Shown here: positions 33,408 through 35,753 of the stretch, piece by piece
How positions within the stretch are numbered: the first letter of the stretch is position 1
Layout: the number at the start of each line of letters is the position of its first letter
Origin: Candidatus Gastranaerophilales bacterium
GTDB lineage: Bacteria; Cyanobacteriota; Vampirovibrionia; Gastranaerophilales; Gastranaerophilaceae
DNA: 35,912 nt
Reading direction: 5' to 3'
NCBI GenBank assembly: GCA_944326125.1
Contig: CALVCR010000119.1
Coordinates: 1 to 35,912, forward strand
Translations under genes and position numbers: made by a program
The notes under the pieces: generated by a model
What the model saw: the letters and a program-made list of their open reading frames with translations, nothing else
What the model was told of the DNA's origin: nothing
The model's database searches: none

Positions 33408-34130
33408 ATGCTAGAAAGAATTGAAAAGTTACAAGTTTTAACAGTCGGCATACTGGCAGTTCTTACTGTATTTGTATGCGCTAAAATGTTATCAACAACA
33501 TTTTCAGGAAATTCAATTTCTGTAACAGGTTCAGCTTATGAAATTGTTAAGTCAGACTCAGGAACTTTGAGCTTTAACGTTACAGTAAAACGCCCGACAA
33601 AACAAGAAGCTTATACTGCAATTCAATCACAAATTAAAACTGTAGAAAAATACTTACAGGACAAAAATATTACCGATATAGAAAGAAAAACCATAAACGG
33701 CTACTACAGCTATAAAAGAGATCCTAAAACAGGCGCATATACAGATATAACAGAAGCTTATAACCTTTCACAACCGTTTATGATTAGCTCTGATAATGTT
33801 GAATTAATTAAAACTATATCAAATGATATTACAGGCTTAATTAACCAAGGAATCGACGTAAATGTATTTGCAGTATCTTACCATTACTCAAAACTTCCTG
33901 AACTTAAAGTTTCATTGTTAGAAAAAGCTTCCGTTGATGCTAAAGCCAGAGCTGCTTCAATGCTTAAAGCAACACATAACAGTGTAGGAAAAATTCAATC
34001 TGTAAGAATGGGTGTATATCAGATTACTCCTGTTAACTCTACAGACGTTTCAGATATGGGTATAAATGATGCAACTACTATTGATAAAAAAGTTACAGCA
34101 GTTGCTAACATAACATTTAAAATTAAGTAA
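33408..34130 (+). CDS. SIMPL-domain (DUF541) membrane-anchored protein
   Basis: 240 aa. N-terminal transmembrane helix ~11-31 (LTVGILAVLTVFVCAKML), then a SIMPL domain: ISVTGSAYEIVKSDSGTLSFNVTVKRPTKQEAY at the start and ARAASMLKATHNSVGKIQSVR near the end. These domains form ring-like oligomers in periplasmic or surface proteins of mostly unknown role. Ribosome-binding site AAGGAG. A perfect terminator follows. Confidence 0.88.
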   Translation: MLERIEKLQVLTVGILAVLTVFVCAKMLSTTFSGNSISVTGSAYEIVKSDSGTLSFNVTVKRPTKQEAYTAIQSQIKTVEKYLQDKNITDIERKTINGYYSYKRDPKTGAYTDITEAYNLSQPFMISSDNVELIKTISNDITGLINQGIDVNVFAVSYHYSKLPELKVSLLEKASVDAKARAASMLKATHNSVGKIQSVRMGVYQITPVNSTDVSDMGINDATTIDKKVTAVANITFKIK

Positions 34131-34136
34131 ACTTAA

Positions 34137-34166
34137 TGCCCCATTTTACATAAAATGGGGCATTTA
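34137..34166 (+). terminator. Terminator after the SIMPL gene, also left arm of an inverted repeat
   Basis: TGCCCCATTTTA / TAAAATGGGGCA is a perfect 12-bp stem with a 2-nt loop, then an interrupted T-rich tail. Its 16-bp centre (34142-34157) recurs in reverse complement at 34480-34495. Confidence 0.75.
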
Positions 34167-34495
34167 TTTTGTTCCTCACACTTGGAGCGAATTCTATATT
34201 TTCTTTAGTTTAATAATTCTTGTAATTTTCTTTTTCTGTTTTCAATGACCATTGGGCATCACAAGGATTGTGCTTCGCACAATCTCTTATGCTCGCAACT
34301 GACACCTCACCCCACCCCTCTCCTAAAAGGAGAGGGGGTTCTATGCATTTTTCGGTAGAAAAATGCAGCAGTGCGTTGTTTTTCTTTCTTATCCAAAGTT
34401 CTTTCTTTTTATATCGCAACAAAAAGAAAGAACTTTGGTGCGGGGTACGGGGCGGCATTAGCCCCGATAAATTATCCATCATTTTATGTAAAATG
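34142..34495. repeat. Array of perfect hairpins bounded by 16-bp inverted repeats
   Basis: Outer repeats: 34142-34157 and 34480-34495 are exact reverse complements. Inside are a GATTGTGC-TTC-GCACAATC hairpin (34266-34284), a 10-bp CCCCTCTCCT hairpin (34315-34337, dispersed repeat copy B), a 10-bp TGCATTTTTC-GGTA hairpin (34344-34367), an 18-bp hairpin (34393-34438) and CGGGGC/GCCCCG (about 34448-34466). I see no convincing protein gene in this gap; the ORFs through it have no ribosome-binding sites or recognisable composition. Confidence 0.75.
34303..34338 (-). repeat. Dispersed hairpin repeat, copy B
   Basis: Inverted copy of the element at 6417-6448, sharing the CCTCTCC/GGAGAGG stem and GGGTGAGGTG tail. 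It lies inside the hairpin array. Confidence 0.75.
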
Positions 34496-34591
34496 AGGTA
34501 TTGTATGTAACAATATATATATTTTATATTGCGATAATAGATAAAACAAGTTATAATAATAAAGTAAATGATTTATTAAAGAGGATACATT

Positions 34592-34789
34592 ATGGATGTA
34601 AGTTCAGTAGGGTACGGAAGCGCCCTAACCCCGGAAGTGCAGGCACAGTATGCAGTGCAATTATTAAGCACGGCTCAGCAGACAGGTTATATTGCAGGTG
34701 ATATTATACAAGATACAGTAGAAATATCAGCCGAAGCGTTAGCTAAATATACAGAAGAACTAACTGCAAGCATTGAAAAATTATTATAA
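34592..34789 (+). CDS. Small protein, 65 aa, possibly YjfB-like
   Basis: Starts MDVSSVGYGSALTPEVQAQY after AAGAGG. The opening MD(V/I)-S and the following Gln/Ala-rich helix (AVQLLSTAQQTGYIAGDII) recall YjfB-family small proteins annotated as putative motility proteins, but the match is weak and made by eye. A strong terminator follows directly. The upstream region contains a TGTAACAATATATATA 16-mer shared with the lysozyme-like gene. Confidence 0.7.
   Translation: MDVSSVGYGSALTPEVQAQYAVQLLSTAQQTGYIAGDIIQDTVEISAEALAKYTEELTASIEKLL

Positions 34790-35714: not shown

Positions 35715-35753
<39 letters not shown>

Follow-up and report, generated by a model that had tools for sequence, protein, structure and literature searches.

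The described systems closest to the locus analyzed here are the PIT, BoxC and TM_ECO elements of enterobacteria, bacterial MITEs, the BIME/REPIN-RAYT system, and invertons, the invertible intergenic DNA of gut bacteria. PIT, BoxC and TM_ECO share with the element described below the order of pyrimidine arm, loop, purine arm, short second loop and mirror purine tract, and are likewise repeated, intergenic and tied to local genome instability. Potential intrastrand triplex elements (PIT) are treated by Holder et al. (2015, PMC4666352), who cite Hoyne et al. (2000), and the triplex motifs of E. coli and its kin have been known for more than 20 years; evidence of selection on the third strand is absent from the papers we found. 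The G/C-rich triplex motif of E. coli folds as an isolated single strand and was not detected in vivo, and Holder et al. report an excess of local rearrangement at the E. coli triplex motifs (PMC4666352). Our search for literature on triplexes combined with MITEs, or on repeats of the Gastranaerophilales, returned nothing relevant. Here we analyze a hairpin-rich intergenic gap which, judging from sequence comparison, is probably one copy, with its left module deleted, of a dispersed, nonautonomous, MITE-like element of the Gastranaerophilales that has triplex-capable ends, an interior that has been flipped, and a third tract kept by selection.

The Hairpin-Rich Gap Downstream of the SIMPL Gene

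The DNA analyzed (the window) is a 35,912-nt stretch from a Candidatus Gastranaerophilales bacterium; its source genome is designated G000, and nearly all genomes compared are metagenome assemblies. The gap separates the SIMPL gene (33408-34130, with a Pfam SIMPL match) from a gene encoding a 65-aa protein (34592-34789). It shows no coding signal, the overlapping ORFs of 80-90 aa being devoid of Pfam matches. The Rfam search of the window gave a tRNA far from the gap as its sole match, with no covariance-model match in the gap itself, and the structured noncoding RNA that had been considered in the first-pass annotation was thus not borne out. Elsewhere in the window, a (CTA)n microsatellite at 35717-35752 lies upstream of a minus-strand 145-aa ORF.

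The hairpins named in that annotation are all present and the listed stems are perfect, including the 18-bp stem with arms 34393-34410/34421-34438. The left stem, given as 12 bp, is 13-14 bp long, with perfect arms at 34135-34148/34151-34164 (13 pairs with a 4-nt loop in a separate hairpin scan). The 16-mers reported to bracket the gap (34142-34157 and 34480-34495) are indeed exact reverse complements; since each is in turn palindromic about CA/TG (CATTTTACATAAAATG), the bracketing inverted repeats and the terminal hairpins are the same thing. Folded as RNA, the 375-nt gap reaches -136.3 kcal/mol, compared with -79.5 +/- 5.1 kcal/mol for shuffles (z -11.1); as single-stranded DNA, its minus strand gives a z of -12.5 vs. 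shuffles. A mirror tract beside the 18-bp hairpin, at 34379-34390, had been overlooked.

The Gap Is a Copy of a Dispersed Element with Fixed Module Order

A BLAST search of the source genome returned 47 matches; apart from the window copy, seven are 150 bp or longer. Matches were also found in 32 of 57 relatives, the same composite occurring within the genus and pieces of it in other families of the order. In an intact copy, the element proper lies between TTTA and TAAA and consists of CATAAAATG, a polypurine hairpin, AATGCCCTTCGGGCATT, GTTGTGCTTCGCACAATCTC, (GTGTCCTTCGGACAC), CACCTCACCCCACCCCTCTCC..GGAGAGGG, GGCATTTTTCGGTAGAAAAATGC, a second polypurine hairpin, CGGGGCGGCATTAGCCCCG and CATTTTATG. 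The middle of the element varies between copies and is sometimes broken by inserts. The terminal inverted repeats CATAAAATG...CATTTTATG are seen in copies from G000, G014, G025, G061 and G004. A TA flanks both sides in 8 of 13 copies scored by script, several of the nonscoring copies being script mis-picks with a TA by eye, and inspection by eye adds the window copy and several others; one copy (L206) lacks the flanking TA. The TA may belong to the terminal palindrome and not to a target duplication.

The suggestion of a composite MITE-like element is thus upheld with regard to its multiple copies, fixed module order, terminal inverted repeats and element-free orthologous site (next section), short of a parental transposase, none of which was found. 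The module order common to the copies rules out independent nested palindromes and makes the competing idea of a landing pad for nested palindromes mostly wrong for the window copy. Some modules are also found alone, and some other copies do hold true nested inserts. A nested insert, TGTCTTGAATTATTCGGGGTGTCGG...CGAAAATTCG, breaks the CACCTCACCCC..GGAGAGGG module in L003 (523-912) and L008 (copies C7 and C25). A further repeated module, CCGACCTTTACGAAGCGAACAATCAATGTTAGCGAAAC...GTTCAGGTCGG, adjoins triplex modules in several species (L080, L101 and L102), and the G025 loci L088-L095 form an intergenic mosaic in which the palindromic repeats GTCATTCCGG..CCGGAATC and CCCTGAATCAAGTTCAGGGTGAC are interleaved with triplex modules.

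Alignment of the copies sets the boundaries of the window copy, CATAAAATG...CATTTTATG, at 34149-34488 on the plus strand (340 bp), with the flanking TA dinucleotides, possible target duplications, at 34147-34148 and 34489-34490. According to the hairpin scan, its left terminal palindrome, AATGCCCCATTTTA-CA-TAAAATGGGGCATT (34135-34164), doubles as a terminator-like hairpin of the SIMPL gene, and the right one, ATCCATCATTTTA-TG-TAAAATGAGGTAT (34474-34501), is imperfect. The copy is left-damaged, most of the left polypurine hairpin being missing. Thus, a locus-private left spacer (34165-34216, plus strand) is followed by a remnant of the left-end A/T-rich triplex module (34217-34249, plus strand), which has lost the loop, purine arm and mirror tract present in the intact copies L002, L098 and L209, and by a small AATGCCCTTCGGGCATT hairpin (34250-34261, plus strand) that is decayed relative to other copies. 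The remaining plus-strand modules are a perfect 8-bp hairpin conserved in copies, GATTGTGC-TTC-GCACAATC (34266-34284; arms 34266-34273/34277-34284), a perfect 10-bp hairpin, TGCATTTTTC-GGTA-GAAAAATGCA (34344-34367; arms 34344-34353/34358-34367), and a 6-bp hairpin, CGGGGC-GGCATTA-GCCCCG (34448-34466; arms 34448-34453/34461-34466), read from the sequence and nearly invariant in copies. Two putative triplex motifs, one G/C-rich (34305-34337) and one A/T-rich (34379-34438), are assigned to the minus strand.

An Element-Free Site and Inversion in Place

In G014, whose SIMPL protein is 91% identical, no element is present between the SIMPL and 65-aa genes (L120), and relatives at ~75% identity have short intergenic gaps from which the element is absent. 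In G061, the closest relative sampled (SIMPL 96% identical), the element occupies the same site between near-identical flanks and is exactly inverted. An 88-nt stretch that includes the private spacer (34149-34236) is single-copy in both G000 and G061 and lies on opposite strands relative to SIMPL. Because the private spacer was inverted together with the element, the insertion was flipped in place and not replaced by another copy. By their flanks and module order, loci C7 and C83 also have opposite orientations in G000 and G061, while C97, with two copies, and C111 show no change of orientation. L012 is likewise inverted with respect to G014 and G004. All of these inversions are between species of metagenome assemblies and not within one population. 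The flanking genes of L008 and L007 (C25 and C111) are joined differently in G000 and in G061 (L207 and L215), reflecting either recombination between copies or assembly chimeras; the apparent rearrangements of C25, C111 and C124 relative to G061 C18 and C53 were set aside, as repeats can yield chimeric contigs.

The palindrome arms at the junction vary by locus and species, with inner and outer arms changing together (TTAATGCCCC/GGGGCATT in G000, TTAATCCACC/GGTGGATT in G025). Polymerase template switching between short inverted repeats is reported to leave just this combination of spacer inversion and arm homogenization (PMC8604942), although the spacer between the element ends is 330 bp, compared with 2-5 bp in the template-switch inversions described in yeast. 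An inverton, in which a recombinase acting on the terminal palindromes would switch an output, for example read-through to the 65-aa gene, is in keeping with exact inversion between palindromes at three loci in two close relatives, the other loci being same-oriented and orientation near random. However, the palindromes differ by locus (cores CATTTTA, CATCTTTTTA and CATTTTGGA), unlike a single recombinase site, and no promoter-like match exceeds shuffle level. We regard an inverton as distinctly unlikely.

Three Tracts Covary in the A/T-Rich Module

On the plus strand, reading the arm 34399-34410 (TTCTTTCTTTTT) backwards, without complementing it, gives exactly the tract 34379-34390 (TTTTTCTTTCTT). 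Read on the minus strand, pyrimidine arm, loop, purine arm and mirrored purine tract have the class II intrastrand triplex layout (purine motif), with T1 (the reverse complement of 34421-34432), a 10-nt loop, T2 (AAAAAGAAAGAA, the reverse complement of 34399-34410), a linker, and T3 (AAGAAAGAAAAA, the reverse complement of 34379-34390); the window copy has 0 mirror mismatches. The layout of the plus strand of this module, 34379-34438, is that of class IV (pyrimidine motif). In other copies, the left-end modules repeat the arrangement in inverted orientation, so the triplex-forming tracts face each other from both ends. The loops of the left-end hairpins (e.g., L002 and L098) are often TTTGCGAAGCAAA. 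GCGAAGC is known as an extraordinarily stable DNA mini-hairpin. Against triplex folding, A-rich purine-motif triplexes are expected to be weak.

The arms vary by copy (AAAAAGAAAGAA, AAAGAGAAAGAAA, AAAGAAAAAGAAAAG, AAAGAAGAAAAAAAG and others), and the third tract varies with them. The mirror tract is perfect in 35 of 53 unique copies, which represent 18 distinct arms (swap permutation, 0/20000), in a set that had been preselected for mirror match; pattern scans and a 231-kb sample were added for that reason. Column-wise pair counting was not used because MAFFT misaligned hairpins of changed length. In the pattern scans, arm and third tract had three free positions each. Of the matches obtained from 286 genomes of the order, 30 of 30 were mirror-consistent, with four variants; across all GTDB species genomes plus IMG/VR, the figure was 57 of 58, from Gastranaerophilales and an unrelated Selenomonadaceae. 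Other copies and compensatory changes, whose absence had been taken in the first-pass annotation to mean chance plus one terminator, are thus both found, the latter across three tracts.

The Selenomonadaceae genome JAGBKP01 (Negativicutes) contains ~200-bp elements, TTTTAAAACCGTAC...GTAAGGTTTT, with triplex motifs at both ends as an inverted pair, and two genomes related to it have ~60 matches each to the same element. Mirror triplex arms in Selenomonadaceae are 17-25 nt long. A 231-kb sample of JAGBKP01, not chosen by motif, yielded 14 distinct arms of this length with the mirror tract matching at 0.92-0.96; swapping the arms lowered the mean match from 0.95 to 0.77, and 0/20000 permutations reached the observed value. 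For asymmetric arms, the direct match was mostly 0.67-0.82 (maximum 0.86), well below the mirror values. A control tract 5' of the hairpin never reached 0.9, and shuffled sequence contained no such long-arm hairpins. The residual mirror mismatch is mostly a constant G/C position beside the 3-nt second loop. Swap permutations and direct-repeat controls rule out chance mirror symmetry of low-complexity tracts. A 400-kb sample of G061 gave only eight hairpin detections (one hairpin being detectable on both strands), none above 0.9, and lends no support alone. A long purine mirror repeat around GTACC on an IMG/VR contig (L203, 4809-4841) has no adjoining pyrimidine arm by eye and may be a plain mirror repeat.

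These data bear on whether the element could be a selfish repeat with no function, its arms kept complementary by template switching and its mirror tract a by-product of quasi-periodic purine repeats. The arms are indeed low-complexity A/G tracts, and neutral mutation by template switching can both generate hairpins and preserve them (PMC8794818). Template switching, however, yields reverse-complement and never mirror copies, and such a by-product is at odds with the excess of mirror over direct match and with the loss of match on swapping; this explanation, already disfavored, seems to us very improbable. To our knowledge, no polymerase or templated process copies a mirror image. Since a mirror copy lies beyond any known templated process, the three-tract covariation is best explained by selection for a triple helix.

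The G/C-Rich Module and the Question of DNA or RNA

The G/C-rich motif reads CCCCTCTCC - TTTTA - GGAGAGGGG - T - GGGGTGAGG on the minus strand from 34337 to 34305 and contains perfect 10-bp arms (34315-34324/34328-34337). Its layout is class II, with a T where the mirror has A; the finder of Holder et al. accepts T opposite A-T as a triad (PMC4666352). No match to the exact E. coli TM_ECO consensus was found in the window. Among 103 unique sequences from the genus, the second and third tracts are mirror-concordant at a variable position in 101, and this holds even for the 16 in which the first-second tract pair is T-G; this concordance may reflect only two ancestral lineages and counts less.

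Purine-motif triplexes do not form in RNA, and pyrimidine-motif ones can (PMC4666352); the sequence by itself is thus compatible with both DNA and RNA. Were the element to act at the RNA level, a pyrimidine-motif (U.A-U, C+.G-C) triple helix would protect or terminate the 3' end of the upstream message, with the terminal palindrome as terminator. The plus strand at 34379-34438 has exactly the class IV order for such a helix, the left palindrome (34135-34164) is terminator-like and directly follows the SIMPL stop codon, and the RNA fold of the gap is strong. On the other hand, triplexes that occur in an inverted pair, and in both orientations at the same site, leave no fixed transcript strand, the T opposite A-T in the G/C-rich third tract of the window copy would fit the DNA purine motif and mismatch the pyrimidine motif, and no Rfam family corresponds to the element. 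An RNA-level role therefore appears unlikely to us. DNA is favored by the in-place flip, by the pairing of ends in inverted orientation, and by the T of the G/C-rich third tract.

A Model for the Element and Comparison with Known Systems

The reading we favor, a MITE-like DNA element with triplex-capable ends, suggests the following model. In the lineage of G000, G061 and G025, the element would have entered the region downstream of the SIMPL gene, its interior having flipped since. In an intact copy, a hairpin and mirror purine tract inside each near-palindromic end could form an intrastrand triplex at both ends, as a class II purine motif on one strand and a class IV pyrimidine motif on the other. 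When single-stranded, an end would fold into the triplex, selection for folding would keep the third tract, and the triplex might stall replication or synthesis. A polymerase template switch, or recombination between the terminal palindromes, could then invert the interior and homogenize the arms. More tentatively, these may be members of a class of small mobile DNA elements, found in two or more bacterial phyla, with ends that are recognized or processed in the form of intrastrand DNA triple helices; the conserved end signal would be the triple helix and not the base sequence, its three strands drifting together, and the ends would drive inversion and spread via the host replication fork or an unknown enzyme. 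We consider this extension possible but rather doubtful.

A mobilizer was sought among known transposases. DDE_3 (IS630-type) was found in 0 of 31 genomes of the genus, and Y1_Tnp (PF01797) in one of six element-bearing genomes, G000, being absent from G014, G025, G061, G004 and G315; neither is therefore generally present. The sole Y1_Tnp gene among the six is at G000:C42:7173-7541 (L234). As no general transposase was found, mobility is read from the distribution of copies only.

Comparison with known systems places the element nearest to several of them without matching any one. Like bacterial MITEs, it is short, noncoding, multicopy and TA-flanked, with terminal inverted repeats and an element-free orthologous site, but it differs in that no parental transposase was found, its ends are palindromic across the junction, it contains several hairpin modules, and it flips in place. 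It shares with invertons DNA between inverted repeats and both orientations at one locus; its repeats, in contrast, are palindromic and differ by locus, structural motifs lie at both interior ends, and there is no known recombinase. With BIME/REPIN-RAYT it has in common a mosaic of short palindromic intergenic modules; however, Y1_Tnp is absent from five of the six genomes, and its ends are symmetrical terminal inverted repeats. Finally, the enterobacterial PIT, BoxC and TM_ECO elements are solitary and G/C-rich, with 9-nt stems, and are not tied to mobile elements, whereas the element described here is A/T-rich with arms of 12-25 nt, arranged as an inverted pair at element ends with terminal inverted repeats, and exists in many covarying variants; loops in Gastranaerophilales are mostly 10-11 nt, compared with the 1-6 nt allowed by the PIT finder (PMC4666352). 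In two unrelated phyla, dozens of variants show simultaneous change in all three tracts and are paired at the ends of dispersed, flippable elements. This is covariation of the kind that established RNA structures, here for a triple helix, whose function in vivo is directly testable.
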